Of a stretch of 64,000 nucleotides of DNA, positions 42,546-58,768 are shown one piece after another. Under the pieces are notes generated by a model. The model ran no database searches. It was not told the DNA's origin and saw nothing but the letters and a program-made list of their open reading frames with translations. A program made the position numbers and the translations under genes. Positions within the stretch are counted from its first letter, which is position 1. The number at the start of each line of letters is the position of its first letter. Source of the DNA: Mycolicibacterium porcinum (GTDB taxonomy: Bacteria; Actinomycetota; Actinomycetes; Mycobacteriales; Mycobacteriaceae); contig MVIG01000029.1 of NCBI GenBank assembly GCA_002086835.1, positions 1-64,000 on the forward strand, given 5' to 3'.

Positions 42546-42555
42546 AGCTCGACCC

Positions 42556-43428
42556 CTATCCCTTGAACACGAATTCCGGGCGAAGGCCCCAGAGGATGAT
42601 GGTGGTGGCCAGGTCCAACACCATGATCGTCACGAGACTCGTGCGAATGGCCCGTCCTGAAGCTTCCCCGACACCGACCGGTCCACCAGAAGCGAAAAAC
42701 CCGTAGTAGCAGTGGATGATCGTGACCGCCGTGCAGTAGACGACCGCCTTCAACAGCGAGTACAGGATGTCTGTCGGCGTGAGAAACTGCACGAAGTAGT
42801 GGTTGTATGTTCCACCCGGCTGGTTATAGAAGATCCGGATCACGGTGTCCGAAGTGATAAAGCTGACCACCAGGGTAAGCAGGTAGCCGGGGATGACACA
42901 GAACAGTCCGCCGATGACCCGGGTACCGACGACGAACGGGATGGACCGCAACGCCATCGCCTCCGCAGCATCGATCTCTTCTGCAATGCGCATGGAACCG
43001 ATCTCGGCGGTCATCCGACAGCCGGCCTGAGAAGCAAACGCCACACCGGCCACCAGGGGTGCCATCTCTCGAACGTTCCCCCAACCACCGATGACGCCGG
43101 CCAGCGCACCGAGACCGATCAGGTTGAGCGTCGCGAACGCCTCGATCGCGACGATCGCGCCGACCGTGATACCCAGGATCGCCAAAACACTGATCACGCC
43201 GCCGTCGACGATGATCGACCCTCGGCCCCACGCAAGGTTGTTGATCACCCCCATGGTCTCTCGGCGATAGCGTCGGACGGTGATCGGCAGCATCCAGAAA
43301 GTCTGCGCAACGAACGTCGCCCATTGTCCAGCCGACCGAAAGGTATTACGTACCGAGTTCAGCGGCGCACGAAGCACCCTCCGGTGAAGCGCGGGTGCTG
43401 CCGCCGACGTTCTTGTCGCCGTTGCCAT
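42556..43428 (-). CDS. yrbEB: Mce ABC permease YrbEB
   Basis: A 290-residue MlaE/YrbE permease. ATG 43428 overlaps the yrbEA stop (TGATG); the GTG codon just before it is also possible. Membrane segments are visible in VISVLAILGITVGAIVAIEA, IGGLFCVIPGYLLTLVVSFI and the C-terminal VTIMVLDLATTIILWGLRP. The conserved coupling region EIGSMRIAEEIDAAEAMALR is the usual EAA-like loop that contacts the MceG ATPase. Confidence 0.92.
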   Translation of the reverse strand: MATATRTSAAAPALHRRVLRAPLNSVRNTFRSAGQWATFVAQTFWMLPITVRRYRRETMGVINNLAWGRGSIIVDGGVISVLAILGITVGAIVAIEAFATLNLIGLGALAGVIGGWGNVREMAPLVAGVAFASQAGCRMTAEIGSMRIAEEIDAAEAMALRSIPFVVGTRVIGGLFCVIPGYLLTLVVSFITSDTVIRIFYNQPGGTYNHYFVQFLTPTDILYSLLKAVVYCTAVTIIHCYYGFFASGGPVGVGEASGRAIRTSLVTIMVLDLATTIILWGLRPEFVFKG

Positions 43429-44366
43429 CACGCCACTGCCATCGGAAAGAACATCGTCTGCAGCTGGGTGATCGCCAGATTGACGATGACGATGACGAGC
43501 ACATTGAGCACGACCGAAGCGTTCACAGCGTCGGCGACACCACGTGGGCCGCCCGTGGCTTCCATCCCACGTTGACAGGAGATGACAGCGACAATGAAGG
43601 CGAACATGAAGCCTTTGCCCATCGTGAACCAGACGTCGACCATCTTGGCGAAGGCACCGAACGACAGCCAGAAACTGCCGGGCGTGACGTCATTGACCAC
43701 AGTCGCGATGACGAAAGCCGCACCCACACCCATCGCGATCACGATGACCACCAGGATCGGCGTGATGAGCAGAAGCGCCAGGAATCGCGGAACTACAAGC
43801 CGCCGCACCGGGTCGATCCCCAGTGTGCGCAGCGCGTCGAGTTCTTCCCGGATTGCTCGGGCGCCGAAGTCGGAGGCGATAGCTGCCGCAGCCGCACCAC
43901 CCATCAAGAGCCCGGCGGTGACGGGCGCACCCTGCCGAAGCACCGCGACGCCGGTGGCCGAACCCACAAGCGAGTTCGCGCCGACCTCGTTCACCAGACC
44001 GGACAACTGGACAGCCACCATCGCGCCGAAGGGGATGGCCATCAGAACTGCAGGCAGTGCAGTAACTTTCAACAACGCCCACGCCTGGAGAATGAGCTCG
44101 CCGAACGGCAACTTCAGCGTCACAAGGTCGGTGACGGAGTACCGCAGCATCGCTCCAGCCAACAAGACGCCGCGGCCCGTCGTCGCCGCGCTCTTAGCGG
44201 GAATCGAGGCGAGCTTTGAGCCCCTCTTGGTAATGCCCGATCGAAGCGTGGTCGCGGCAGCGCCTACCCGCCCAGGCTGAGCGCGATGACCGTTACCGGC
44301 TCGCAGAGGCTCCGCCGTCCGGTCCAGCACCGAGACCGATCCGGCGAACTGCGCAGTCGCAGACAT
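43428..44366 (-). CDS. yrbEA: Mce ABC permease YrbEA
   Basis: A 312-residue MlaE/YrbE permease and first gene of the mce operon. ATG 44366 was chosen because AGGAG lies seven bases upstream. The coupling loop is ARAIREELDALRTLGIDPVR; membrane segments include LLLITPILVVIVIAMGVGAA and VVLNVLVIVIVNLAITQL. The N-terminal 60 residues before the first amphipathic helix are longer than usual and Arg/Ala-rich. It pairs with YrbEB to form the inner-membrane permease. Confidence 0.92.
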   Translation of the reverse strand: MSATAQFAGSVSVLDRTAEPLRAGNGHRAQPGRVGAAATTLRSGITKRGSKLASIPAKSAATTGRGVLLAGAMLRYSVTDLVTLKLPFGELILQAWALLKVTALPAVLMAIPFGAMVAVQLSGLVNEVGANSLVGSATGVAVLRQGAPVTAGLLMGGAAAAAIASDFGARAIREELDALRTLGIDPVRRLVVPRFLALLLITPILVVIVIAMGVGAAFVIATVVNDVTPGSFWLSFGAFAKMVDVWFTMGKGFMFAFIVAVISCQRGMEATGGPRGVADAVNASVVLNVLVIVIVNLAITQLQTMFFPMAVA

Positions 44367-45061
44367 CGCCGACTCCTGATCCACACGGGAATCAGGACTG
44401 TCCGCCCCTCGATCCAAAGGACTCGTCAACGTTGGGCCTCCATACCGTGGACTGATGCGACGGCGACTACGGATAGTGCGCCTGGACTCTGCGTGCCCCG
44501 CTGTGCGACACCACCAATGCGGTACACCGACAGGCACTTGGTGGCTCCGACGATCCGCGAGCTCACGCCTCGCCAGCTCGTCGCAGCTCCGGGCGGATAC
44601 TGATTACTTCTAATTAAAATTAAAATTTGCGCCCAAAAAAATTTGACCTCGACGACCTTGGAAACCGCTGGAAAGGCCACGCTGCACACATAATCAACCA
44701 TGCCCCGTCCCCTTCCTCGGAAGTCGCACTGTTGCTCACTTTGCCGCTGCCCCGAACGGCGGTCGCGGCCAGGCCATCTCGATTCGGGCTCTGATGGTAT
44801 GGCGTAGCTCATAGTGAGTCAACCCGTGTGAGCTCCACTACCGGAACTCGTGGCCTTTGCGTGTTCCCGCGCAAGCAAAGCAGTCGTGCCATCTGCGACC
44901 AGCCCGATTCCCACGAAAGCTCCTGGGAGGAATCGCATTTCGATTCTCACTACGCTCACCTGCCCATCAACCTCCAAAACAGCTACACCGAGCACACGTT
45001 GCCACCGCAGCGCGTTGAGACGACGGACCCCGGCCGACCCGCACGCTCACTCCCACCCCGC
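44367..45061. other. Long intergenic region upstream of the mce operon
   Basis: These 695 bases separate yrbEA (minus) from the TetR stop at 45062 (minus). No frame in it shows a known domain or a good ribosome site. It holds the operator-like palindrome at 44608-44625 followed by an A-rich tract (GCCCAAAAAAATTTG), probably the mce promoter zone about 240 bp before the first gene. A long 5' leader is implied if transcription starts there. Confidence 0.5.
44608..44625. promoter_or_regulatory. Probable TetR operator of the mce operon
   Basis: TTCTAATT-AA-AATTAAAA has nearly complementary arms (one mismatch) and fits the window motif with only transitions from GC to AT near the centre. It ties the import operon to the catabolic operons. 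Confidence 0.6.
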
Positions 45062-45667
45062 TCAGGATGTCGGCTTCCCCAGGTACCCCGCCACGAGCCG
45101 CTCCAGCGCTCCTCGAAACATCGCGTCCTGAACACCCGCCATGGCGAGGCGATCCCGCACTCGGTGCACTGCGGGCGCTTCCTCACCCACCTTCGACAGT
45201 TGAGTGCGTGCAGCACGGGACGACCGATAGAGCGCACAGCCGAGGGTGAGGCTGAACGCAGCCACCAGCAGATCCGACGCCGACCCATCGTCCATCCCGT
45301 TGCGCTGCAACAACTCCAGCACCCGGTCAGCGATCTGCGCCGCGACCGGCCCCTCCATCGGGTTGTCACCGACCGCGCGCGCGAGACCCGGATGATCACG
45401 TAGAAGTTCGTACAGACCGTTCAGACAATGGGACAGTTCGTCCATCAGCGGTCCCGATGGGTCCGCCAGGGGTACGACGCGAAGCGACTCGTCGATCACC
45501 ACATCGACCAGGCCCGACTTGTCCGGCAGGTATCGGTAGATCGCCATGGGAGTGACTCCTAGTCGTTGCGACAGTCGACGCATGCTGAGCGCGTCGATGC
45601 CGTCAGCATCGGCGATCTGCACGGCCGCACGAACCACTACTTCACGACTGAGCCCTGCCCTCCTCAT
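45062..45667 (-). CDS. TetR regulator with TetR_C_1-like C-terminal domain
   Basis: A 201-residue protein: MRRAGLSREVVVRAAVQIAD, HTH LSQRLGVTPMAIYRYLPDKS (residues 28-50), then a C-terminal domain with LYELLRDHPGLARAVGDNP. It diverges from the first acceptor gene of the split dikinase cluster across a GC-rich palindrome at 45697-45712, so it probably represses that cluster and itself. It resembles the dead TetR at 4401-5010 in type, not the KstR2-like pair. Confidence 0.85.
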   Translation of the reverse strand: MRRAGLSREVVVRAAVQIADADGIDALSMRRLSQRLGVTPMAIYRYLPDKSGLVDVVIDESLRVVPLADPSGPLMDELSHCLNGLYELLRDHPGLARAVGDNPMEGPVAAQIADRVLELLQRNGMDDGSASDLLVAAFSLTLGCALYRSSRAARTQLSKVGEEAPAVHRVRDRLAMAGVQDAMFRGALERLVAGYLGKPTS

Positions 45668-45773: not shown

Positions 45774-47402
45774 ATGCGGCCTGACGCCGTACCAGCGCAC
45801 ACCGGACCAAACGCCCTGAACGGCGTTTCTCCGGCAAATGCCACGTGGAGTTCCATCAACCTGGCTGAGGCCGTACCGGGGGTGATGACGCCGCTGTGCG
45901 CCAGCGTGTGGGTTCCGGCCAGTGAACTAGGCCTGCGGGAGCCATTCGTGGCAATGGGAGCACTGCCGGTCCGACGTGGGCACATCCCAGCTGACCCGAT
46001 GGGGCGTATCACCAACGCATTCTTCGGCAGGATGGCCGTCCGGGTGGACTTTCTCTGCGAGATGGGCGACCTCATCCCCGGCCAGTCTGGTGAGGCATTG
46101 GCGCGGGACTTCTTTGGATTCGTGCCTCCGGACTTCCACAGTTCTCCCTCGAATCGGCGGCTACCGTTCATCGCCGCGCGGTACCCCCGAACCCTTCTCA
46201 CTATCGGTAGACGTATCGAGAAATTGCGTACCGAAACCGACCGATGGTGGCGACGCGAAGTCGCGACCATGAATGGTCTCAACCTCGCCCTTTCCCAGAG
46301 GGCCATTGGGGAAGCGCGGAACCGGTTCTTCGATGCGCTCGCTGCCCAAGCGGTGATCAGTGCCACGCTGATCCAGCCCCTCCAGGAGCAGTTGGCGACG
46401 ATGAGTTCGGCTGCAGGCGTCGATCCCGCCGCCCTACTGCGAGGCGCCTCGCACGAGGAGGGCGCAGTTCTGCACGATCTCTGGGCGGCGTCACGTGGGC
46501 ATCTGACCGTCGAGGAGTTCGTCCTCCGCCACGGCTATCACGGACCCGGGGAAGGTGAAGTGGAGACGCGGGTGTGGCGTGAAGATCTGGACACCGTGCG
46601 CACCCTCGTAGAGCGCTACCGCGCTAAGCCCGATTCCGAATCCCCGAACGCAGACGCGGCCGATCGGGTCGTGATGCGTGAGAGCGCCGAACGGGCATTG
46701 CTTTCCTCATCAAGCCGAGCCGGAGTCGCGCGCGCCCGCATCGTGTTGAAGCTGGCCCGTCGATACATCCCGCTGCGCGGCACCGGCAAGGTGTCCTACC
46801 TCCAGTGCATCGACGTGCTGCGTGCCGGAGCCCGCCACATCGGCGCCCTCCTGGCGGAGGCGGAACGGATCGATGATCCGGAAGACGCCTTCTATCTGAC
46901 CGCCGATGAACTGTCCGGGCCCACGCTGACCGATCCCCGCGCCGATCTGCGCCAGATTGTCGGCGCGCGCCGCGAACTGCGCCTGGAGTATCAGGCGTTG
47001 ACTGTCCCCAGCGCGTGGACCGGAACCCCCGAACCACAAGCACTGGAGACGCAGGCCGCCGGTTCGGTGACATCGTTGTCGGGTATCGGCACCTGCTCCG
47101 GGATCGTGGAGGGCCGCGCCGTCGTGGTGATCGACCCCGCTGATGCTGATGTGGACGACGGAGACATTCTGGTCGCCCATACCACCGATCCGTCCTGGGT
47201 GTCGCTTATGTTCCTCAGCGCGGCGCTCGTGGTGGACATCGGCGGCATGATGAGCCATGCCGCCGTCGTCGCTCGCGAACTCGGAATCCCTTGCGTGATG
47301 AACACCGGCAACGGCACCTCCATCCTGCGCACCGGCGACCTCATCCGGGTCGACGGTGCGGCCGGAACAATCGAAGTGCTGACGCCAGCTGCCGCGTCCT
47401 GA
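45774..47402 (+). CDS. Dikinase acceptor protein 1 (PEP-utiliser family, no ATP-grasp)
   Basis: A 542-residue protein from ATG 45774 (GGAG five bases upstream). The N-terminal and central part resembles the substrate-binding domain of rifampin phosphotransferase and PEP synthase: DLIPGQSGEALARDFFG, HGYHGPGEGEVETRVWRED, then ARRYIPLRGTGKVSYLQC and DDPEDAFYLTADEL. The C-terminal swivelling domain has the phospho-histidine at about H495 in GGMMSHAAVVARELGIPCV. There is no ATP-grasp domain, so it needs a phosphoryl donor, presumably the PPDK-type protein at 49030. It is paralogous to the proteins at 50541 and 53448. Confidence 0.82.
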   Translation: MRPDAVPAHTGPNALNGVSPANATWSSINLAEAVPGVMTPLCASVWVPASELGLREPFVAMGALPVRRGHIPADPMGRITNAFFGRMAVRVDFLCEMGDLIPGQSGEALARDFFGFVPPDFHSSPSNRRLPFIAARYPRTLLTIGRRIEKLRTETDRWWRREVATMNGLNLALSQRAIGEARNRFFDALAAQAVISATLIQPLQEQLATMSSAAGVDPAALLRGASHEEGAVLHDLWAASRGHLTVEEFVLRHGYHGPGEGEVETRVWREDLDTVRTLVERYRAKPDSESPNADAADRVVMRESAERALLSSSSRAGVARARIVLKLARRYIPLRGTGKVSYLQCIDVLRAGARHIGALLAEAERIDDPEDAFYLTADELSGPTLTDPRADLRQIVGARRELRLEYQALTVPSAWTGTPEPQALETQAAGSVTSLSGIGTCSGIVEGRAVVVIDPADADVDDGDILVAHTTDPSWVSLMFLSAALVVDIGGMMSHAAVVARELGIPCVMNTGNGTSILRTGDLIRVDGAAGTIEVLTPAAAS

Positions 47403-47453
47403 AGTTTTTCGGTCACCGATCACACCAATTGCATTACGACGAAAGGTTATTTG

Positions 47454-48371
47454 ATGAGCACCGCGACAAGCACCGACATCTCGCCCAACGCCGGGGGCGC
47501 CGCTGCCTGGGGGCCGCTGTCTACGGCGATCCACGCCGACGCGGCCGGTCCATCCGACCCGACCTGGAAGGACAACGCCTACCTGTCCTTCTGGGATGTG
47601 GCCGGCAACATCTACGGCAGCATCCACGTCTCGACGTCGCCCAACGACTCCAAGGCGCGTCGAGCGCGGTTCTCCCTGCAGGTGGACAACCAGATCATCG
47701 AGATCATTGAGCCGCTTCCGCTGGGATCCTTCGCCAGTGAATCCATCTCGTTCGGCCTGGACGGCACCATCACCGTCGACCACCCCGATTTGAAGGTTTT
47801 ACTCGGCAACGCTCCGCTCTGGGTTCCCGCTGATTTCGCGCTCAACGAGCTCATTCCTCCGCTGGTTCCCGGCAAGCCGCTGCAGCATTACCAACAGGCT
47901 TGCACCCTCCGCGGCACCATCGAGCACGGCGGGCGTACCTGGACGCTCGATGCGACCGGAATGCGCGACCGCACATGGGGTTTCCGCGATGAGGCGGCGC
48001 AGTGGATCGAATACGCCGGCCTGGTGTGCGTCATCGGCGACAGCTTCGTCTCCGCGATGAAATTCCTCGGCACCGATGGAAGCCTGCGCGCAGACGGCTA
48101 CTGGGTCGACGACAACGGCGCGGTACTCATCACCGATATGGGTTTTCGCCGCAACGCCGCCGCACAGTTCCTCTCCAGCACCATGACTTTGGCGGACGGC
48201 CGCGAGAAGACCGTCACGATGTCGAACCGTCTGGCCGGATTCTTCGTGCCCATGGGCCGCGACACCGACGGTCCCGCCTTCGGCACCTACGACGATTTCA
48301 TGACCCTGGCCGATGGTGAGGCCGAAGGCGCCGGCTTCGTCGAACAGGGCATCGTCCACCGCGTGTTCTGA
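47454..48371 (+). CDS. AttH/CrtC-like (DUF7064-type) protein
   Basis: A 305-residue beta-rich soluble protein from ATG 47454 (AAAGG upstream). It opens with a domain containing WKDNAYLSFWDVAGNIYGSI and SKARRARFSLQVDNQ, and a second containing GGRTWTLDATGMRDRTWGFR and SMTLADGREKTVTMS. The G.RDRTWG.R motif is shared with AttH/hydroxyneurosporene-synthase-like double-lipocalin proteins. These bind or modify isoprenoid-like substrates; I cannot assign a reaction. A relative with ARDHSSGPR lies at 55772. It is 51 bp after acceptor gene 1. Confidence 0.6.
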   Translation: MSTATSTDISPNAGGAAAWGPLSTAIHADAAGPSDPTWKDNAYLSFWDVAGNIYGSIHVSTSPNDSKARRARFSLQVDNQIIEIIEPLPLGSFASESISFGLDGTITVDHPDLKVLLGNAPLWVPADFALNELIPPLVPGKPLQHYQQACTLRGTIEHGGRTWTLDATGMRDRTWGFRDEAAQWIEYAGLVCVIGDSFVSAMKFLGTDGSLRADGYWVDDNGAVLITDMGFRRNAAAQFLSSTMTLADGREKTVTMSNRLAGFFVPMGRDTDGPAFGTYDDFMTLADGEAEGAGFVEQGIVHRVF

Positions 48372-48415
48372 CGGCTAGCACACACCGGCCGACGATACCG
48401 ACAAAGGAGTTCAGC

Positions 48416-49033
48416 ATGGACATCGAGCGACTTCGGCTTCTCCGGGCGCTTCGACTCAAGGGGCGAGTTCTCGCAGCAGATCTTCCGGCTGCGGCCGGCG
48501 TCACGGCAGTCCAGAGCGACGATTACATCAAGGAATTCACTTCTGACAATCTTGTCGAGGAAGTCCGGGGGCGCCTAAAGCTCACGCCACAGGGCCGAGA
48601 CCAACTGGACGAGACGCTGGTGGCCGAGCGGAGCACGGTCGACCACGAAGCGCTGGCGGCGTTGTACACCGAGTTCGATGAGCACAACAGCGCGCTGAAA
48701 TCGCTGATGACGCGATGGCAACTCAAGGGCCCAGACACGCCCAACGACCACACCGACCCGGAGTACGACCAGGCGATCGTGGATGACCTGGTCGCGCTCG
48801 ACGCCGAGTTCACACCGCTGGTGGACCGCATGGTCGAGGTCGCGCCGCGGCTGGGACACTACCCGGCCCGGTTGGCCAACGCGCTCGATCGCGTGACGGC
48901 CGGCGATCATTCATGGTTCGCAAAGCCGCTGGCCGACAGCTATCACACGGTCTGGTTCGAGTTGCATGAGGACCTCATCGGTCTGGCCGGCCTGTCCCGG
49001 ATCGAAGAAGCAGCGGCAGGGAGAGCCGAATGA
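48416..49033 (+). CDS. Winged-helix-like protein, third component of the dikinase unit
   Basis: A 205-residue protein (MDIERLRLLRALRLKGRVLA). Residues 1-60 look like a winged helix with a wing ending EEVRGRLKLTPQGRDQL; the rest is helical with many acidic residues. Its ATGA overlap with the PPDK-type gene means tight co-translation, so it is more likely a subunit or dedicated regulator than a free transcription factor. By analogy, phenylphosphate synthase has a third small (CBS-domain) subunit, but this protein shows no CBS motif. The family is not recognised. Confidence 0.6.
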   Translation: MDIERLRLLRALRLKGRVLAADLPAAAGVTAVQSDDYIKEFTSDNLVEEVRGRLKLTPQGRDQLDETLVAERSTVDHEALAALYTEFDEHNSALKSLMTRWQLKGPDTPNDHTDPEYDQAIVDDLVALDAEFTPLVDRMVEVAPRLGHYPARLANALDRVTAGDHSWFAKPLADSYHTVWFELHEDLIGLAGLSRIEEAAAGRAE

Positions 49034-50544
49034 GTGTTTCCACCGACCACCTCGCCGATCGGGTACAGCCCTTGCGCGGCGACGGCACGCTCACTCGCGA
49101 GATCGCGGGCGGTAAGGCGTGGAGCATTCAGAACATGTTGGCCTTGGGTATTCCGGTGCCCCCGGCGTTCGTCGTGACAACTAACGTCTGCCGGGACTAC
49201 CACGCCGGCGGAAGGGAATTTCCGTCGGACCTGATCGATGAGGTCCGACGGGCACTGCAGCGCGTGGAGGAGCAGACGGGACGCAACTTCGGCGTGCCCG
49301 AGCGACCGCTGCTGGTGTCGGTGCGCTCTGGCGCAGCGATCTCGATGCCGGGGATGATGGACACGGTCCTGAACCTGGGCATGACAGCGGACATCGAGAG
49401 GGCGCTGGCCGTCGAGACCGGCGACCCGGATTACGCGGCGGACACCCGGCATCGCTTCGTCGAACAGTTCGAGAAGGTAGTGGGCACAACTCCGCCGGAT
49501 GAGCCGTGGGCCCAGCTCGAACTCGCGATCCGTGCCGTGCTCGATTCGTGGCATTCCAAGCGCGCCGCCGCGTACCGGCGTTCGCGCAACATCCCCGAGG
49601 ATGGTGGGACCGCTGTCACGGTGCAGGCCATGGTATTCGGCAACTTGGACGACCAGTCAGGCACCGGTGTGCTCTTCTCCCGGGATCCGCTGACCGGCAA
49701 CGCCGACCCCTACGGCGAATGGCTGCCGCGCGGTCAGGGTGAGGACGTGGTGTCTGGCCGCAAAGATGCGTTGAACCTTCAGGAACTCGGCACGTCCATG
49801 CCGGCGGTGCATCGTGAACTGTTGGCTGCCACCGAGATACTCGAGCGCAACGGTCGCGACGTTCAGGACATCGAATTCACGGTGCAGTCAGGACGGTTGT
49901 GGCTGCTGCAATCCCGCTCGGCCAAACGGACCCCGCGGGCCGCCCTGCGAAGCGTCGTGCACCTACAGCGCGACGGGATCATCAGCGTCTCCGAGGCGCT
50001 CGATCGCGTACAGACCGAACATGTGCACGCAATGCTCCGGCCCCGTTTGGACCCCAAGGCTGTCTCAGCATCACCCCCGGTAGCCGCGGGCAAATCAGCA
50101 TGCCCAGGAGTCGCAAGCGGGCTTGTGGTCACCGACGCCGACATGGCCGAGCAACTCTCCGATGAGGGGCTAGCCGTCATCCTCGCGCGCCCCACCACTG
50201 ACCCAGATGACGTCGCTGCGATGTCGGCGGCGGTGGCGGTGCTGACCGAACTCGGCGGATCGACATCGCATGCCGCGGTCGTGTGTCGCGAGATGGCGAT
50301 TCCCTGCGTGGTGGGGTGTGGGGTCGGCTCCATGACCGACCTCGCGGGCAAGATCGTCACCGTCGATGCCGAGGCCGGGACTGTCCACCTCGGTGAGTTG
50401 CCAGTGCAGCCGCCCGTGGCGTCCGACGACGACGACCTCCAGCTCATCGAAGGCTGGTTTCGGGACGTCCTCGGCGAAGACGACCCCGCCGTCACCCTGC
50501 TTAGTCTGGTCGATGGTTACCACCGTCGCATCGGAGCGCAATGA
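49030..50544 (+). CDS. ppdK: PPDK-type ATP-grasp and phosphohistidine protein without PEP domain
   Basis: A 504-residue protein equal to the N-terminal two domains of pyruvate phosphate dikinase. The ATP-grasp part has GGKAWSIQNMLALGIPVPP (27-45), SVRSGAAISMPGMMDTVLN (97-115) and QAMVFGNLDD...GTGVLFSRDPLTG (199-223), and the metal site QDIEFTVQSGRLWLLQSRS. The swivelling domain has phospho-His about H414 in GGSTSHAAVVCREMAIPC. The C-terminal TIM barrel that binds PEP/pyruvate is absent; about 370 residues are missing compared with full PPDK. M. tuberculosis Rv1127c is a similar short form. It would phosphorylate His from ATP, releasing AMP and phosphate. It overlaps both neighbours by 4 bp. 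Confidence 0.88.
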   Translation: MSVSTDHLADRVQPLRGDGTLTREIAGGKAWSIQNMLALGIPVPPAFVVTTNVCRDYHAGGREFPSDLIDEVRRALQRVEEQTGRNFGVPERPLLVSVRSGAAISMPGMMDTVLNLGMTADIERALAVETGDPDYAADTRHRFVEQFEKVVGTTPPDEPWAQLELAIRAVLDSWHSKRAAAYRRSRNIPEDGGTAVTVQAMVFGNLDDQSGTGVLFSRDPLTGNADPYGEWLPRGQGEDVVSGRKDALNLQELGTSMPAVHRELLAATEILERNGRDVQDIEFTVQSGRLWLLQSRSAKRTPRAALRSVVHLQRDGIISVSEALDRVQTEHVHAMLRPRLDPKAVSASPPVAAGKSACPGVASGLVVTDADMAEQLSDEGLAVILARPTTDPDDVAAMSAAVAVLTELGGSTSHAAVVCREMAIPCVVGCGVGSMTDLAGKIVTVDAEAGTVHLGELPVQPPVASDDDDLQLIEGWFRDVLGEDDPAVTLLSLVDGYHRRIGAQ

Positions 50545-52181
50545 CGACCGTCGATTCCATGCTGCACACGCTGGACTCAAGCAGTCCCCGTGCTCAGCAA
50601 ACGTGGACGACCGGAAACGTGGCCGAGGCTTTCCCCGGCGTCTTCAGCACGCTGGGGCTCGGCTTCGTCTTCAGACCCATGGAGCTCGCCTTCCGGCGCA
50701 TGTTCTACGACCTCGGGGTGTATTCCGCGAACGAGGTCGAGGTTCCTGCCAGGATCCAGGATTGTTTCTGGTCGGTGTTCGACGGGTGGGGCGCCGGAAA
50801 CATCGACAAGTTCCGCGACATCGCCAACCGGATGCCCGGAACCTCCGCCAGCGCAGTGGAGCAGCAGCTCTTTGGCTATGCACGCCCGGAAACGGTCGAT
50901 GCCAACACAATCCGACGTTATCCCTTCATCATCGCCAAGGCGCCGCGCTGGCTCATCCGAACTCCGAGACGTCACGACGCCATGTTCGCAGGTCTGCGAA
51001 CATGGCGGCGCGGCGTGATCGACCGCATCCCCGAGATGAACGAACGCGACTGTGCCGCGACCCTCGCCGACGCCCAAGCACGGTTCGAAGATGTGATGAG
51101 CATTCACATGGGCGTCGCCATGGTGAGTTCGTCATTGGCGGAGAAGGTCGCGGACATGGCGAGGAAGGCCGGCCACACCGGCCTGGAGACCGCGCTGCTG
51201 TCCGGCGTGGGTTCCGACGAGAACGAGGTAGCGCACGACCTGTGGGCACTGGCTCACGACGAGATCAGTCTCGGCGAATTCAATGGCCGGCATGGTTATC
51301 ACGGCCCGAATGAGGGCCAACTGTCCGGCGTCACCTGGCGCGAGGATCCCACGCCAGTACTGGCACGGCTCGCCGACTATCGCCTCATCTCCGCGGACAG
51401 CCCCCGCGCGCCGCGGCGCCGCGGCGCCAATCAGCAGGACACACGTGAGGACGCGCTACGCCGATTGCTCAGCGCCAGCCCGCGGGCCAAGCGACCGGCT
51501 GCGCAGGTCCTCGTCAGGACAGCGGCACGTTACCTCGCACTGCGCGAACAGGGTAAGGCCGGCTATCTGATCACCATGGATGTCGCCCGCGCGGCGGCCC
51601 GGCGCATGGGTGAGATCCTCGCCGTTCGCGGAGTCATCGACGAACCGGAGCACATCTTTCATCTCGGATACGACATGGTGCTGGCGGGAGTCAACACCGA
51701 TCAACGAGAAATGGTTGCCAAGAGAATCGCCAAATACACAGCTCGGCAGGCGATTCGGCTGCCGAAATCGTGGTCGGGCCAGCCAGTGCCCATCGTGGTC
51801 GATGACCAGGAGCGACAGCAACTGCTTGCCGGCCACACTCTCAGTGGCGTGGCGGCCAGCGGCGGTGTGGCCGAGGGGCGAGCCCGCGTGGTGCGCGACC
51901 CGGACGGCGTGGAACTCGAAGACGGGGACATCCTGATCTGCGAGACCACCGACCCGGCTTGGGTTCCGCTGTTCCTGGTCGCCGGTGGCGTTGTGACCGA
52001 TCACGGCGGCCTGCTCAGCCATGGCCCGATCGTGGCGCGTGAACTCGGAATCCCTTGCGTCTGCGGAACCGAAGACGGTAGTCGACGGATCGCCGACGGC
52101 CAATTGGTTCGAGTCGACGGGGACCGCGGTGTGGTGACCGCACTCTCACCAGCCGTGAAATCGGCCGCTTCCGTCGATTAG
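50541..52181 (+). CDS. Dikinase acceptor protein 2 (PEP-utiliser family, no ATP-grasp)
   Basis: A 546-residue paralog of the 45774 protein. Shared landmarks are VEQQLFGYARP, RRYPFIIAKAPRWLIRTPRR, NGRHGYHGPNEGQLSGVTWR and ARYLALREQGKAGYLITM, and the phospho-His is at about H494 (GGLLSHGPIVARELGIPCV). Its ATG overlaps the ATP-grasp gene stop by 4 bp, so this acceptor is probably made in equal amounts with the kinase and is its primary partner. It would carry the phosphoryl group to an unknown alcohol or phenol. Confidence 0.83.
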   Translation: MTTVDSMLHTLDSSSPRAQQTWTTGNVAEAFPGVFSTLGLGFVFRPMELAFRRMFYDLGVYSANEVEVPARIQDCFWSVFDGWGAGNIDKFRDIANRMPGTSASAVEQQLFGYARPETVDANTIRRYPFIIAKAPRWLIRTPRRHDAMFAGLRTWRRGVIDRIPEMNERDCAATLADAQARFEDVMSIHMGVAMVSSSLAEKVADMARKAGHTGLETALLSGVGSDENEVAHDLWALAHDEISLGEFNGRHGYHGPNEGQLSGVTWREDPTPVLARLADYRLISADSPRAPRRRGANQQDTREDALRRLLSASPRAKRPAAQVLVRTAARYLALREQGKAGYLITMDVARAAARRMGEILAVRGVIDEPEHIFHLGYDMVLAGVNTDQREMVAKRIAKYTARQAIRLPKSWSGQPVPIVVDDQERQQLLAGHTLSGVAASGGVAEGRARVVRDPDGVELEDGDILICETTDPAWVPLFLVAGGVVTDHGGLLSHGPIVARELGIPCVCGTEDGSRRIADGQLVRVDGDRGVVTALSPAVKSAASVD

Positions 52182-52284
52182 GTCATCAGGTCGCGGCAAT
52201 GTCGGTCTCAACTAATTGCTCACCGCGTTGCCCCATGCCTGAAAGGCAAGCGCCGCAGAATATTTCGCGGCACATTCTCCGTCG

Positions 52285-52304
52285 ATGGCATTGACCAATG
52301 CCAT
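52285..52304. promoter_or_regulatory. Perfect 20-bp palindrome, probable operator
   Basis: ATGGCATTG-AC-CAATGCCAT has perfect 9-bp arms. It lies in the 145-bp gap before the F420-type oxidoreductase gene (52327), marking a second promoter inside the cluster. The TetR at 55115, last gene of this second unit, is a likely binder. Confidence 0.55.
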
Positions 52305-52326
52305 GTACACGCTGTAGACATACACA

Positions 52327-53451
52327 ATGACCAACGAACACCGCGCTGTCATAGACGATCTCAGCGCCTATCTCATTGCGGGGCGGGTGGTTTCGGCCCT
52401 ACCTGAGAACCACATCGATCAGACTGCGGCCAGAACTGTGGTCCAGGGCATCCAGGACGGGGCCGAAGCCGAACAGTTGGGCTTCGCCAATGTCTATCTG
52501 TCGGAGAGATGGAATCTCAAAGAAGCTGGTGTCGTCCTCGGCGCAGTGGGTGCGCGCACCACTCGCGTGGGCCTAGGCACCGGACTGGTCTCGCCGGCAC
52601 GTCGGCATGTCCTACACATGGCCGCGTTCGGCGCCACGATGCACGCCGCTTTCGGCCCCCGGTTCCTCCTGGGACTCGGTCGAGGCGACCATGCCTACTT
52701 GCGGCACGAAGGCCTGCAGACGGCCGGTTTTGCCGGCGTGGTCGACTACGTCAAAATTCTGCGGCGGCTGTGGGACGGGGAGGTCGTGTCCTACGACGGA
52801 CCGGCGGGAACGTACCGCGACATCAAGCTGGGAGACATCTACGTCGGCCCCGCACCCAAAATGCTCTACGGCACCTTCGGGATGCCCAAAGCCTCGGCAG
52901 CCGTTGCCAGGGCCTTCGACGGCGTCATCCTGCCCCCGATGATGTCTCCCGATGCCACATCCCGATCAGTGACACGGCTGCGACAGGCCTGCGAAACCAT
53001 CGGCAGGGATCCACACTCCCTGCGCATCGTCCAGTGCGTGGTCACCGCGCCCGACCTCGACATCGACGAGGCCCGTGCGCTGGCCCATGCTCGAGCCGTG
53101 ACTTATCTGCAAGCACCTGAATACGGCGCTGCACTGGCAAAAGTCAACGAATGGGACCTTGGGCCGGTCGAAAAGATCCGCTCCGAAGTCGACCGCATGC
53201 AGAATGGAGCGGGAGATGAATTGGCGGACACCGCGTTCCATCGTATCCAATTGATGGACGTGGCCCGTCTCGTGCCCGACGAGTGGATGGACGCGTCCTG
53301 TGCGTTCGGCACCGCAACCCAGTGCGCCGACAAATTGCGGGAGTTCAAACAGGCTGGCGCGGACGAGATCTCCACCTACGGAAGCACACCCGGCCAGAAC
53401 GCCGATGTACTCGCCGCTTGGCGCCGGACGACGACTGCGGTGAATCGATGA
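52327..53451 (+). CDS. Luciferase-like (F420-type) oxidoreductase
   Basis: A 374-residue TIM-barrel protein of the bacterial luciferase family: EQLGFANVYLSERWNLKEAG, RTTRVGLGTGLVSPARRHVL, FGPRFLLGLGRGDHAYL, and VVDYVKILRRLWDGEVVSYD. The family uses F420 or FMN; mycobacterial members with the RFLLGLGRG segment are often annotated as F420-dependent. It would oxidise or reduce a substrate of the dikinase cluster, perhaps an alcohol. Its stop overlaps acceptor gene 3 by 4 bp, so the two are coupled. Confidence 0.82.
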   Translation: MTNEHRAVIDDLSAYLIAGRVVSALPENHIDQTAARTVVQGIQDGAEAEQLGFANVYLSERWNLKEAGVVLGAVGARTTRVGLGTGLVSPARRHVLHMAAFGATMHAAFGPRFLLGLGRGDHAYLRHEGLQTAGFAGVVDYVKILRRLWDGEVVSYDGPAGTYRDIKLGDIYVGPAPKMLYGTFGMPKASAAVARAFDGVILPPMMSPDATSRSVTRLRQACETIGRDPHSLRIVQCVVTAPDLDIDEARALAHARAVTYLQAPEYGAALAKVNEWDLGPVEKIRSEVDRMQNGAGDELADTAFHRIQLMDVARLVPDEWMDASCAFGTATQCADKLREFKQAGADEISTYGSTPGQNADVLAAWRRTTTAVNR

Positions 53452-55049
53452 CTCTCGACCTACACGCACCGAACCCGATGCACCGAGTATCAGGTCCCCA
53501 TGACGCGTGGTCGACCATCAACACTCGGGAGAACTATCAAGGTGTGATGAGTCCGCTCGGCGCCACGCTGTGGCTGCCAGTCAGCGACTTGGCCGTCAAC
53601 GGCACGTTCCACGACCTAGGAGTGCTACGCCCAGACGAGGTCACCGTGGCCAGGACTCCGGCCGAATCCTCATCCACCGTCTTCTACGGTCGATTCACCG
53701 CCAGTATCAACTACTTCCGACGCGTCAGTGACCTCATTCCCGGCCAGTCGGGTGCATCGTTCGAGGAACAGATCTTCGGGTCCTCACGCGCCGACGCGCC
53801 GGACACCAAGTCCAAACGCCGGTATCCGATCGTGGCGGCGAAGGCCCCTGTCACGATATTCAGGCTGCCCAAGCGCATCCGCCGGATGTCCGGCGAGGTG
53901 CATGCTTGGTGGAGACTGGCGACCACGCCCGCGGGGATGGCCCGCTCGGTCGATGTCCAGTTCGCTCAGGCGCTGAAGATGCTCGAATACTCGATGCGCG
54001 AGCACGTCACGCTCACTTTTGTAGCGCAAGGCCTCTTCGACGCGCTGGACAAGCTCGCGGTCTCCATCGAACGACCGGGACTGCACTTGGAGCTGTCCAC
54101 CGGTTACGGGCAGATGGTTGAAACGCAGTTCGTCGCGGCGTTAAACGATGTGGCCCTGGGTAAGTCGACACTCGCCGCGTTTCTCGCCGACTACGGCTAC
54201 CGGTGCGCCGGGGAGATCGAGGTGTCCAATCCGTCCTGGCGAGAAAAGCCCGAACTGGTACAGCGGATGGTCGAAAAATACCGGTCCGCGCCCACTCGGC
54301 AGGACCTCGCCGCACAGGCCGCAGAACGCACGCAGACGCGACTGGCAGCAGAGCAGGTTCTGCTCTCATCGCTGCCGAGGGCCAAGCGACCCGCGGGTCG
54401 TCTGCTATTGAAGCTGGCCGCAACTTACATTCCGCTGCGTGAAGAAGGAAAAGCCGCGCTGGCAATGGCTTTCGATGGGGCCCGCGCGGCGTGCGGAGTC
54501 CGCGGACGCGAGTTGGTCAGCGAAGGCGTCATCGACTGTGTGGACGATGTGTTCTACCTGACGATGGACGAGATCAGGGGTACGCCTCCACTCGACGCTC
54601 GCAGCCTGATCGCAACACGCCGCGCGCTCCGGCAAGCCTACGAGCAGATGGACGTACCGGACGCGTGGGTCGGCCAACCAGTACCGGTCGAATTGCCGGC
54701 CGTTCAGGTTGGTCGGGTGGATAGCGTGACCGGAGTCGCTGCCGCCCATGGCGTCGCCGAAGGCCTGGCCCGCGTTCTCAACAGCGCCGACGATCTCGAT
54801 GATCTCGAGCCCGACGAGGTCCTGGTGTGCCGAACCACCGACCCGTCCTGGGCGTCGGCGTTCCACCTGGCTGCGGGTGCCGTCATCGACATCGGATCGA
54901 CCGGATCCCACGGTGCCATCGTGGCCCGCGAGATGGGCATGCCCTGCGTGATCGGAACGGGAAACGGCACGCACTTGCTGCGCACCGGTGATCTGTTACG
55001 CGTAGACGGTGGTACTGGGGTGGTCACGGTTCTCCAAGCCGCGACGTAA
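53448..55049 (+). CDS. Dikinase acceptor protein 3 (PEP-utiliser family, no ATP-grasp)
   Basis: A 533-residue third paralog. It shares DLIPGQSGASFEEQIFG, RRYPIVAAKAPVTIFRLPKR, YGYRCAGEIEVSNPSWREK, YIPLREEGKAALAMAFDG and VDDVFYLTMDEI. The phospho-His is at about H488 (GSTGSHGAIVAREMGMPCV). The GYRCAGEIEV...WRE segment is the closest of the three to the rifampin-phosphotransferase GHRGPGEIEL motif. It lies in a second transcription unit with the luciferase-like enzyme and is 65 bp before a TetR gene. It again lacks an ATP-grasp domain. Confidence 0.82.
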   Translation: MTLDLHAPNPMHRVSGPHDAWSTINTRENYQGVMSPLGATLWLPVSDLAVNGTFHDLGVLRPDEVTVARTPAESSSTVFYGRFTASINYFRRVSDLIPGQSGASFEEQIFGSSRADAPDTKSKRRYPIVAAKAPVTIFRLPKRIRRMSGEVHAWWRLATTPAGMARSVDVQFAQALKMLEYSMREHVTLTFVAQGLFDALDKLAVSIERPGLHLELSTGYGQMVETQFVAALNDVALGKSTLAAFLADYGYRCAGEIEVSNPSWREKPELVQRMVEKYRSAPTRQDLAAQAAERTQTRLAAEQVLLSSLPRAKRPAGRLLLKLAATYIPLREEGKAALAMAFDGARAACGVRGRELVSEGVIDCVDDVFYLTMDEIRGTPPLDARSLIATRRALRQAYEQMDVPDAWVGQPVPVELPAVQVGRVDSVTGVAAAHGVAEGLARVLNSADDLDDLEPDEVLVCRTTDPSWASAFHLAAGAVIDIGSTGSHGAIVAREMGMPCVIGTGNGTHLLRTGDLLRVDGGTGVVTVLQAAT

Positions 55050-55114: not shown

Positions 55115-55744
55115 TTGAGCGAGATTGACGAACGCGGTTACCGCAACTTCCTGCGTCTCGAAGCCATCGTCGGCGAGGCGAGGGCGATAGCCGACATCGA
55201 GGGCCTTCAGGCGGTGTCGATGCGGGCACTGGCAGAGCGCCTGGGGTGTACACCGCGCGCGCTCTACCGACACGTGGCAGACAAGGACTCAGTCCTGGAA
55301 TTGATGGCAGATCAGGCGTTGGCCGACATACCGACGCCGTCTTCGGCGGCGCCGTGGCAGACGGCGCTGTCGGAATTCTTCACGGACATGTACGACCTGT
55401 TGGCCGCTTCCCCTGCGGTCGCCACAGTCATCTCCCAGCAGGCGGTCACCGGAGAGCACTTTCGCGCGCATGCCGATCTGCTGGTGGGCAGGTTGCTCGA
55501 GGCTGGACTGCCGGCAGCGTTGGCCGCTGAGGCCGTCGTGACGCTGGCCCAATTCACTTTGGGGGCATCACTTCCCGGAACCAGCCAGCGACTGCACGAC
55601 CTCTATCGGGGCCGCGGTCAACGGTCCGACGAGCAGGCATTTCCAGCTCTGGCACACGTCGCGGTGCATTTCACCGACGACGATGCCGCCAATCGCTTCA
55701 GGACTGCACTTCGGCGACTGATCGGCGCCTACGAGCAGCATTGA
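55115..55744 (+). CDS. TetR regulator
   Basis: A 209-residue protein from TTG 55115 (AGGG upstream). The N-terminal HTH is ALAERLGCTPRALYRHVADK (residues 36-55), preceded by LEAIVGEARAIADIEGLQAV. The C-terminal domain is TetR_C_1-like, with FFTDMYDLLAASPAVATVIS. It is the last gene of the 52327-55744 unit and converges on the AttH/CrtC-like gene with 27 bp between stops. It probably autoregulates through the palindrome at 52285-52304. Confidence 0.82.
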   Translation: MSEIDERGYRNFLRLEAIVGEARAIADIEGLQAVSMRALAERLGCTPRALYRHVADKDSVLELMADQALADIPTPSSAAPWQTALSEFFTDMYDLLAASPAVATVISQQAVTGEHFRAHADLLVGRLLEAGLPAALAAEAVVTLAQFTLGASLPGTSQRLHDLYRGRGQRSDEQAFPALAHVAVHFTDDDAANRFRTALRRLIGAYEQH

Positions 55745-55771: not shown

Positions 55772-56827
55772 TCAGCGCATCTCCGGAGCGGGCAGCATCG
55801 AGCTGCGGTAGTCGCGTTCGATGACACCCCAGCCAACCTCGCCATCGTCGGCAACCACCCGGAAGGCACCCTGGGTGACCAAGAGCGGGTCGAACTCCTC
55901 GGCATGGGCGACACCATTGACGTTCACATTCGGCGCGAGCAGCGACAATGTGTACCCGTGCATCCACTCGCCCCGGTACGTCCGGGGTCGTTCGCCCCCC
56001 AGGTTCATCACCACCTCGCGCGGTTGGTGGGTTCCCAACTCCGCCAGTCCGGTCATCTCGACCTCGTAGCCGATCTCGCAACGTTGATTCTGCTGCACAG
56101 TGAACACCCGGTGTCCTACTTCTCCGTCACGGCCCCAACTGATCACTGCGTTCGCCACCCGTCCGCTGTCGGGAAAGACCACGACAAAGAAGTGCAGACC
56201 GCCGAAGTTCTCGAGCCTTCGGGGGCCGCTGGAGTGGTCGCGGGCCGCCACGCCGTCGATGTCGATATCACTGTAGCCCTCCACCTTCAGTGCGCCCCGA
56301 GCGTAGAGGCCCTGCGTGTGATGGTGCGCGGCCCAACTCAGATTCTCGATGCCCAATGCGCCGTGCATATCCCACACCGGTGCAGCTGCCCGCAGCTCCA
56401 CGTCGAAGGAGAAGGCCGCGGCGCGCGAGGCACCGACAGGCCCCTCCGCCATCTTCGCAAGGCTGGCGGGTTCGCCGGCGCCGTCGAAGCGCACCCGCCA
56501 CGTCGTCAGCGGCTCGACACACTCCACCCTGAGATTCCCCGTCGCCGGGCCGCGATGATCGACGGCGCGCCCCCACGACCGGTCCACCAGCAGGGTGCCG
56601 TCCGGAAGCATCGCGATCACTTGGGCCCACCAGAGATCGACGTCACCCGGCCACCGGCCGACATGGATGAATGCCCCCGCGTTGGACTGAGGGCTCCAGA
56701 CCTGGAAGAACTGGGTCTCACTCCAATGTTCGACATCGCGGCGCACGTCATGCAGCAGATCGTGCTCGGGTCGAACATCGAAGGGGTTGTCGCCTAGCAA
56801 TATTCGCGGCTGAGAAACCTGTGACAT
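55772..56827 (-). CDS. AttH/CrtC-like (DUF7064-type) protein
   Basis: A 351-residue soluble beta-rich protein. AGGAGG lies six bases before ATG 56827. WSETQFFQVWSPQSNAGAFI opens the first lipocalin-like half and GYSDIDIDGVAARDHSSGPR the second, matching the G.RD.(S/T).G.R motif of the protein at 47454. The two are distant paralogs. A role in binding or transforming an isoprenoid-like compound is inferred only from AttH/CrtC relatives. It is the last gene of the minus-strand group with the two membrane proteins, but has its own operator-like site upstream. Confidence 0.6.
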   Translation of the reverse strand: MSQVSQPRILLGDNPFDVRPEHDLLHDVRRDVEHWSETQFFQVWSPQSNAGAFIHVGRWPGDVDLWWAQVIAMLPDGTLLVDRSWGRAVDHRGPATGNLRVECVEPLTTWRVRFDGAGEPASLAKMAEGPVGASRAAAFSFDVELRAAAPVWDMHGALGIENLSWAAHHHTQGLYARGALKVEGYSDIDIDGVAARDHSSGPRRLENFGGLHFFVVVFPDSGRVANAVISWGRDGEVGHRVFTVQQNQRCEIGYEVEMTGLAELGTHQPREVVMNLGGERPRTYRGEWMHGYTLSLLAPNVNVNGVAHAEEFDPLLVTQGAFRVVADDGEVGWGVIERDYRSSMLPAPEMR

Positions 56828-58742: not shown

Positions 58743-58768
58743 GACTAACTCCCGTGACAAACTGGATG

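Follow-up and report, generated by a model that had tools for sequence, protein, structure and literature searches.

Split dikinases and the locus studied

In the two-component dikinases PpsAB, CreHI and HpeHI, the ATP-grasp chain is separate from the chain that holds the substrate-binding and swivelling phosphohistidine (swivel) domains (PMC12167813). Rv1127c of Mycobacterium tuberculosis, given the name VadK in 2026, is a truncated pyruvate phosphate dikinase (PPDK) with ATP-grasp and His domains, and has been published as a regulatory histidine kinase (PMC13400623). Here, we describe a 64,000-nucleotide stretch of the Mycolicibacterium porcinum genome (GCA_002086835.1, contig MVIG01000029.1, positions 1 to 64,000; hereafter the window), in which a VadK-type gene is clustered with genes for three acceptor proteins (ACC1, ACC2 and ACC3) that bear their own swivel domain. 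The first-pass annotation of this DNA had considered such a system undescribed, which is too strong in view of the published families just named. The system is conserved and real, and is a kind of two-component dikinase built on a VadK-type charger. VadK probably uses ATP to charge, by way of a phospho-His, several small-molecule phosphotransferases that share it, which would make the island a split, shared dikinase. Three features are new relative to the known split dikinases: a His on the charger itself, the sharing of this charger, and the link between Rv1127c, Rv2047c and Pks12. If this is true, a family now read as regulatory becomes the hub of a modular small-molecule kinase set.

HpeHI, CreHI and PpsAB resemble the island in the separation of the ATP-grasp from the substrate and swivel chain, and in the homology of their acceptors with two parts of rifampin phosphotransferase (RPH), the RIF-binding domain and the swivel domain. 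They have a phosphoenolpyruvate (PEP)-synthase-like ATP-grasp motif, HpeI has no His domain, and one acceptor has been described for each, whereas the ATP-grasp of the island is PPDK-like, has its own His (PF00391, 76.3 bits) and is accompanied by three clustered acceptors. For HpeHI, a swivel domain that travels from one component to the other has been proposed, the two forming no stable complex; HpeH alone can take phosphate off a phosphorylated product and pass it to a second substrate, for which its His is needed (PMC12167813). RPH resembles the acceptors over their C-terminal 300 residues, in the catalytic Arg and Lys (and, for two of the three, the Glu) and in the swivel His, but is one chain with its own ATP-grasp (PMC4844700). 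Rv2047c of M. tuberculosis, described as an epimerase plus a PEP-utilizing domain (PMC7058343), shares the acceptor-type C-terminal half and swivel His, and its family co-occurs, and sometimes clusters, with VadK; it differs by the N-terminal epimerase-type domain and, according to gene numbers, does not lie beside vadK in M. tuberculosis.

Given ATP and Mg, M. tuberculosis VadK autophosphorylates His422; its gain of about 80 Da, corresponding to one phosphate, was recorded in a Tris/NaCl/glycerol buffer to which phosphate had not been added. Growth on propionate was rescued by neither the His422Ala nor the phosphomimetic His422Asp variant, and its authors proposed a regulatory kinase acting on methylcitrate-cycle (MCC) enzymes. 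Rv1126c is operonic with Rv1127c, and M. smegmatis was reported to lack VadK (PMC13400623). There as here, a truncated PPDK with ATP-grasp and His domains adjoins an Rv1126c-like gene; the difference is that the window gene is clustered with three acceptors.

Domain composition of the charger and the acceptors

Within its 504 aa, the ATP-grasp protein showed two Pfam domains, PPDK_N (PF01326, 146.7 bits) and PEP-utilizers (PF00391, 76.3 bits), and no other; the absence of the PEP/pyruvate barrel rules out a PPDK. It scored 702.2 bits against the NCBIfam profile of truncated PPDK, NF004531 (cut-off 456). Scores were 459.8 bits against full-length PPDK (TIGR01828), under the cut-off of 843.45, and 101.5 bits against PEP synthase (TIGR01418), the two values comparing whole profiles and not the motif. 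Both domains aligned with plant PPDK. The swivel His motif was GGSTSH (His414), and an SH was found in every VadK row listed.

We take this protein to belong to the family of Rv1127c/VadK, and the island pair to correspond to Rv1126c-Rv1127c; NF004531 was equated with Rv1127c, and NF004520 with Rv2047c, from architecture, neighbours and published descriptions. The product of the preceding gene (48416-49033), previously annotated as winged-helix-like, gave nothing above cut-off in the Pfam search, and the gene was judged to be the counterpart of Rv1126c from its position beside a VadK-family gene. The majority of the VadK loci retrieved had an Rv1126c-like homologue, either adjoining VadK or no more than a few kb away, and one was also found beside two full-length PPDK genes (loci L059 and L060; L and G numbers designate loci and genomes, respectively).

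Because the ATP-grasp is PPDK-like and not PEP-synthase-like, inorganic phosphate (Pi) would be expected as co-substrate and pyrophosphate (PPi) as product (ATP + Pi -> AMP + PPi), whereas the phosphorylation of M. tuberculosis VadK without added phosphate fits the conversion of ATP to AMP and Pi given in the first-pass annotation.

The three acceptors contained the PEP-utilizers domain alone (88, 83.9 and 77.8 bits for ACC1, ACC2 and ACC3, with His motifs GGMMSH, GGLLSH and GSTGSH, respectively). None had PPDK_N, which rules out ordinary PEP synthases or single-chain RPH. ACC2 and ACC3 were each 36% identical to ACC1. The part upstream of the swivel domain matched NCBIfam profiles of the RPH/PEP-synthase type, and a 36-row acceptor profile aligned with RPH structures over positions 238-534 (best 5hv2, E 2.7e-64), its N-terminal 237 positions being unmatched to RPH in this profile alignment. 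Of the RPH-Lm residues Arg666, Glu667 and Lys670 (PMC4844700) and His825, all three acceptors keep the Arg, the Lys and the His; the Glu is present in all but ACC1. Judged by sequence, the acceptors are RPH-like proteins minus the ATP-grasp, since the ACC-type profile also matches 806-aa chains that bear one.

The four reading frames of the first-pass annotation (starting at 45774, 49030, 50541 and 53448) were placed correctly, as were the ATGA overlaps on both sides of the ATP-grasp gene, with the Rv1126c-like gene (49030-49033) and with the ACC2 gene (50541-50544). Pfam and the His motifs also agree with its description of a PPDK-type ATP-grasp protein with a phospho-His domain and no barrel, and of three acceptors without ATP-grasp, each with a phospho-His domain and intact histidine. 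A third ATGA overlap, absent from that annotation, joins the F420-dependent oxidoreductase gene to the ACC3 gene (53448-53451).

Two other views of the acceptors were weighed against these data. ACC1 lacks the Glu of the R-E-x-x-K motif and ACC4-type proteins lack its Arg, as would be expected if some acceptors were decaying or non-catalytic paralogues from a recent duplication; we regard this as very improbable, all three being full length with the His intact, and each having its own counterpart in three other genomes (G231, G253 and G279). The acceptors could also be enzymes that release no stable phosphorylated product, such as ligases or dehydratases that use ATP-dependent phosphorylation merely to activate the substrate (compare the prodigiosin ligases RedH and PigC). 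The profiles of these two ligases matched the acceptors about as well as that of RPH (for ACC3, 141.4 bits with RedH and 138.3 bits with RPH). The complete RPH catalytic motif in ACC2 and ACC3 may speak for phosphotransferases, and we consider mere substrate activation unlikely; such activation would alter the product and not the logic of charger and acceptor.

Across the source genome (6.96 Mb, 102 contigs), PF01326 was found in two proteins, both VadK-type, one in the window and one on contig C15. PF00391 was found in nine places. Five of these were accounted for by the VadKs and the window acceptors; the others were a further stand-alone acceptor, on C15 (P0011), and P0016, P0017 and P0018. 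P0016 (734 aa) matched the Rv2047c-type family at positions 484-845 and had no Pfam-recognised epimerase domain, while P0017 and P0018 were of the PEP-dependent enzyme I type of the phosphotransferase system (PTS). These last two, a PTS enzyme I (L017:7544-9901, contig C19) and an EIIA-HPr-enzyme I fusion (L018:1750-4626, contig C70), complete the PF00391 proteins of the genome. The C15 cluster comprised an acceptor, a DUF7065 protein, an Rv1126c-like protein, VadK and a luciferase-like oxidoreductase. Five acceptor-type proteins (four stand-alone and the Rv2047c-like P0016) thus face two possible VadK-family ATP-grasp donors, in a closed system.

Conservation of the island and co-occurrence of its parts

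The island comprises ten genes in the order TetR / ACC1-DUF7065-Rv1126c-VadK-ACC2-LLM-ACC3-TetR / DUF7065, where Rv1126c denotes the Rv1126c-like gene and LLM the F420-dependent oxidoreductase gene. The eight genes other than TetR were collinear in G231 (L072), G279 (L073) and G253 (L074), which rules out a one-off or chance assembly. Each of these genomes retained one TetR gene, the 5' one in L072 and L074 and the 3' one in L073. Mce-type genes flank the island in all three loci by sequence, and Pfam recognised MlaE in the window and in L072 (175.7 bits). A shorter unit, DUF7065-Rv1126c-VadK-ACC2, occurred in L026, L028, L029 and L030, with an ACC1-type second acceptor nearby in L026 and L028. 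In all seven loci ACC2 adjoined VadK, and DUF7065 stood just before the Rv1126c-like gene. Directly 3' of ACC2 in L026 (14230-15201), we observed a DUF7065-like open reading frame (ORF) with a C-terminal swivel score (STTNHAAVV), which looks like a remnant or a DUF7065/acceptor hybrid.

G231, G253 and G279 each had one VadK and three ACC-type acceptors. Their other PPDK_N proteins were one of PEP-synthase-like order in each and, in G279, also a PPDK-sized one. In G207, VadK was the sole PPDK_N protein and was accompanied by one ACC-type acceptor. G236 had nine ACC-type places and one VadK; because it also has several further PPDK_N proteins, it is a weaker example than the number suggests.

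Co-occurrence was determined in a family sample of 201 genomes and a genus sample of 148 genomes, both including the source genome. For the family sample, ACC-type matches were counted at >500 bits and Rv2047c-type matches at E<=1e-40. Twenty-eight of the 201 genomes exceeded the VadK cut-off, and 26 were counted as VadK-type once G015 and G168, with PPDK proteins of 831-836 aa, had been set aside. ACC-type acceptors were found in seven genomes (12 places) and Rv2047c-type genes in ten; the 16 different genomes with one or the other were all VadK-positive (hypergeometric 2.9e-17 against the 26 VadK-type genomes, relatedness not corrected for).

After exclusions, the genus sample held 74 genomes with both, 3 with an acceptor only, 0 with VadK only and 71 with neither (74, 8, 2 and 64, respectively, without exclusions). 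The excluded matches were those to VadK in G224 and G225, where the frames (921-942 aa, about 478 bits) have the size of a full-length PPDK, to the Rv2047c family in G220, G279, G280 and G317 (about 142-157 bits; positions 522-838 only, or 86-838 in G279), and to the ACC type in G254, G307 and G326 (fused chains). We retained the partial VadKs of G210 and G213, as well as evidently broken genes in two of the 74 genomes with both: the Rv2047c-type gene in G293, and in G259 this gene and VadK alike. In the three genomes with fused chains, the ACC-type domain lies in an 806-aa chain with an N-terminal PPDK_N, matched by the ACC-type profile over positions 18-534 at most, and no VadK was found.

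The first-pass annotation had named conservation of the gene set as a check, and acceptor genes usually standing in genomes without the ATP-grasp gene as an outcome that would speak against it. The eight island genes are collinear in G231, G253 and G279, and 74 of the 77 acceptor-bearing genomes of the genus sample carry the ATP-grasp gene. Its proposal that one kinase serves several acceptors is thus supported, from comparative genomics, by linkage, by co-occurrence, by the three acceptors per VadK in G231, G253 and G279, and by the fusions.

Rv2047c, Pks12 and mycoketide

In six genomes (G252, G227, G314, G328, G290 and G243), a long polyketide synthase (PKS) ORF lay between vadK and an Rv2047c-type gene. 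These ORFs measured 4151-4421 aa from the first possible start and had two ketosynthase motifs; Pks12 has 4151 aa (PMC3318773). G272 had the PKS and an Rv2047c-type gene but no vadK. In M. tuberculosis, rv2047c is operonic with pks12, and a role of Rv2047c in mycoketide biosynthesis has been suggested as possible (PMC7058343). The published transposon-sequencing profiles of the three genes, in six columns each, are similar: NE/ES/GD/NE/NE/ES for rv1127c, NE/ES/ES/NE/NE/GD for rv2047c and NE/GD/GD/NE/NE/GD for pks12 (PMC7058343).

According to a 2012 review, the enzymes for mycoketide hydrolysis, reduction, phosphorylation and mannosylation were all unidentified at that time, and the mannosyl-phosphomycoketide antigen was undetected in M. 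smegmatis (PMC3318773). From these data we infer that VadK, in slow-growing mycobacteria, would charge Rv2047c, an epimerase/reductase-like domain joined to an acceptor and encoded beside pks12, and that Rv2047c would make phosphomycoketide. Rv2047c and Rv1127c are candidates for the reduction and phosphorylation steps; if so, a virulence-associated kinase, Rv1127c, gains a partner and a pathway, and Rv2047c with VadK become concrete candidates for two mycoketide steps. PMC7058343 was the only paper found to name both Rv1127c and Rv2047c, in a search that left most subscription journals outside, and its passages on them draw no partner link between the two. Rv2047c, rifampin, PEP synthase and mycoketide are all unmentioned in the main text of PMC13400623.

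In G082, we also observed a 699-aa NF008972 protein (L058:8572-10671, the same as L185:1572-3671), related to Rv2047c-type proteins and without the swivel His domain, which would need an outside His donor. A shorter second match of NF008972 shape accompanies Rv2047c-type genes in many genomes.

Other partner classes and the VadK tree

A swivel-domain partner was found within about 12 kb of VadK in 21 of the 26 VadK-type family genomes; in the others (G066, G082, G120, G132 and G183), partners were present but unlinked in the assembly. The partner was of the ACC type in G000, G014, G021, G079, G100 and G190, an acceptor of about 575-617 aa in G042, G119, G125 and G197, and of the Rv2047c type in G062, G113, G129 and G139. 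Seven family genomes had other swivel proteins beside a long VadK. This long class (578-597 aa) was found in G018, G023, G025, G027, G137, G147, G172 and G190, and a view of it as acceptor-less was dropped, its stretches holding other swivel-domain proteins.

Three kinds of swivel protein were observed in L044 and L046 (G018 and G025): a stand-alone one of about 120-140 aa, one with the domain at the N-terminus of a 540-587-aa protein, and one with the domain at the C-terminus of a 237-301-aa protein. Unlike swivel proteins also occur in the long-VadK clusters L033, L045 and L047-L050; L044 and L046 showed the SH-L motif at sequence level, and the remaining long-VadK loci were judged from profile matches only. 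In L046, the swivel proteins are accompanied by an Rv3169-family protein, an acyl-CoA ligase, a biotin carrier, a pyruvate-carboxylase-B-like protein and, by eye, a biotin carboxylase, and the cluster is possibly a phosphorylation-dependent carboxylase.

A small swivel protein and an Rv1126c-like gene were also observed near the full-length PPDK genes of the two loci mentioned above (L059:7212-7706 and L060:13670-14125; SH-L motif read for L059), and a PPDK might itself charge an outside acceptor. In three metagenome-assembled genomes (MAGs), an alphaproteobacterial, a Tepidamorphus and a Thermoleophilia one, VadK-type genes were likewise accompanied by a small swivel protein and an Rv1126c-like gene. 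A contig scan with the VadK alignment gave mostly full PPDK genes, with few VadK-type loci among the matches listed.

In a 44-row VadK/PPDK tree, starred support was obtained for the window type (8 rows), the 600-aa-acceptor type (5), the long type (8) and the mycobacterial type (13); three MAG rows fell outside the long type. ACC4-type and Rv2047c-type partners were intermixed within the mycobacterial type, and the tree fits co-diversification only partly.

Proposed mechanism and competing explanations

In the PTS, one phospho-His charger, enzyme I, feeds several acceptors such as HPr and EIIA. Enzyme I is PEP-driven, and the acceptor profile matched only its swivel domain. By analogy with the M. 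tuberculosis family member and its His422, VadK would phosphorylate its own swivel His with ATP. The phosphate would then pass from this His to the swivel His of an acceptor, in a PTS-like relay driven by ATP and not by PEP, and the RPH-like domain of the acceptor would transfer it to a hydroxyl of a bound small molecule, as RPH and HpeHI do. The three acceptors would hold different substrates; that each takes a distinct hydroxylated compound is a guess. Judging by the mce operon, the F420 oxidoreductase and the pair of DUF7065-type proteins encoded alongside, imported hydrophobic alcohols are the probable substrates.

Alternatively, the acceptor swivel domain might dock on the VadK ATP-grasp and receive phosphate straight from ATP, as in HpeHI and PpsAB, the His domain of VadK then serving as a store or gate or surviving as a relic. 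Of the two routes, only this direct loading has a precedent. The model and the mutants of HpeHI (PMC12167813), the completeness of the RPH-like swivel domains of the acceptors, and the ATP-grasp/acceptor fusions in L063-L065 are consistent with it. HpeI bears on both routes: its chain lacks a His domain, so that a His-to-His step is unprecedented in HpeHI, and the same lack also counts against direct loading. The conserved SH motif of VadK, together with the failure of both H422A and H422D in M. tuberculosis in vivo, favours the relay over direct loading, which we hold to be rather unlikely. The same requirement for His422 (PMC13400623) means that the His domains, called redundant in the first-pass annotation, need not be so.

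A wider version of the relay is conceivable, and we put it forward tentatively, with less confidence than the shared charger itself. VadK-type proteins would be ATP-driven counterparts of enzyme I, relaying phosphate from His to His to interchangeable acceptors: ACC-type, Rv2047c-type and 600-aa proteins and, in another clade, unlike swivel proteins that lie next to parts of biotin-dependent carboxylases. In M. tuberculosis, VadK would charge Rv2047c, whose epimerase/reductase-like half would reduce the Pks12 product and whose acceptor half would phosphorylate it to phosphomycoketide, and the vadK propionate phenotype would be at least partly a consequence.

Several observations weigh against a shared charger or its extension to Rv2047c. 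The VadK co-immunoprecipitation table has five rows, PrpC, PrpD, Mfd, Rv1179c and PpsE, Rv2047c not being among them, and the vadK mutant showed little change in the cell-wall lipids examined (PMC13400623). By gene numbers, and by eye in L043, vadK lies near prp genes, which fits the published regulatory role. G239 (a 320-contig draft), G272 and G297 have an Rv2047c-type gene without VadK, and even a loose threshold (E<=1e-5) brought up no VadK-like row for them. Some genomes that lack VadK-type genes nevertheless have acceptors of about 575-600 aa; G010 has one of about 600 aa, with an Rv1126c-like gene and a PPDK-like ORF nearby. G236 carries a fused ATP-grasp/ACC-type frame and VadK together. 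In G293 (3.3 Mb), VadK is intact, the Rv2047c-type gene is broken and the PF00391 domain of VadK is the sole one found, so that VadK may act without an acceptor; in G259, a genome of similar size, the two genes are both broken. Rv2047c-linked VadKs fall at three places in the tree and not in one clade. Finally, relatedness inflates all co-occurrence counts, as related genomes are not independent samples.

Some of these points would suit a protein-histidine kinase that regulates central metabolism, with the acceptors as mere neighbours supplied from an independent phosphate source. G293 agrees with this, as do the MCC flux phenotype and the co-immunoprecipitation with PrpC and PrpD (PMC13400623). 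The near-strict co-occurrence, the ATGA-overlap linkage with acceptors and the lack of any other PPDK_N protein in the source genome argue the other way, as does the ipTM of 0.36 of the published MCS-VadK model (PMC13400623), and we find a purely regulatory kinase distinctly unlikely.

Layout of the island and neighbouring genes

The features of the island and its flanks are listed in Table 1. The remaining genes of the Mce-type operon are presumed members, assigned by ORF order. Promoter and terminator scans gave no signal exceeding shuffled controls, and a search for inverted repeats at three gaps yielded a single 10-base palindrome.

Table 1. Coordinates of the island genes and the adjoining operon in the window.
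Feature	Position	Strand	Remarks
Mce-type lipid-uptake operon adjoining the island	36419..44537	-	MlaE permease 179.2 bits (42556-43431), MlaD 25.6 bits (41445-42545)
Divergent TetR-family regulator, 5' island end	45062..45667	-	Pfam; found in L026, L072 and L074, not L073
Acceptor 1 (ACC1), RPH-like substrate domain and swivel His domain, without ATP-grasp	45774..47402	+	542 aa; motif GGMMSH; R335..K339 = RPH-Lm R666..K670
DUF7065 protein D7065a	47451..48371	+	PF23213 39.8 bits (cut-off 27)
Rv1126c-like protein	48416..49033	+	Neighbour of VadK; ATGA overlap with next gene
VadK-type charger, PPDK-type ATP-grasp and swivel His domain	49030..50544	+	504 aa; NF004531 702.2 bits
Acceptor 2 (ACC2)	50541..52181	+	546 aa; motif LREQGK = RPH-Lm R666-E667..K670
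F420-dependent LLM-class oxidoreductase (TIGR03857)	52327..53451	+	475.5 bits, cut-off 218.4
Acceptor 3 (ACC3)	53448..55049	+	533 aa; motif LREEGK
TetR-family regulator, 3' island end	55115..55744	+	Pfam; found in L073, not L072 or L074
Second DUF7065-like protein D7065b	55772..56827	-	22.2 bits, below cut-off 27; kept in L072-L074

Adjoining the island, the window encodes an AveC-like spirocyclase (57741-58760) and a FAD-dependent oxidoreductase (59514-61244); judged by eye, ORFs similar to this pair adjoin the island in L074, and an AveC-like one does so in L072. A catabolic block at 2451-33422 includes AMP-binding ligases, an acyl-CoA dehydrogenase, thiolases, a P450, SCP2, an aldehyde dehydrogenase and the alpha and beta subunits of a Rieske dioxygenase, a content that suggests degradation of hydrophobic compounds.

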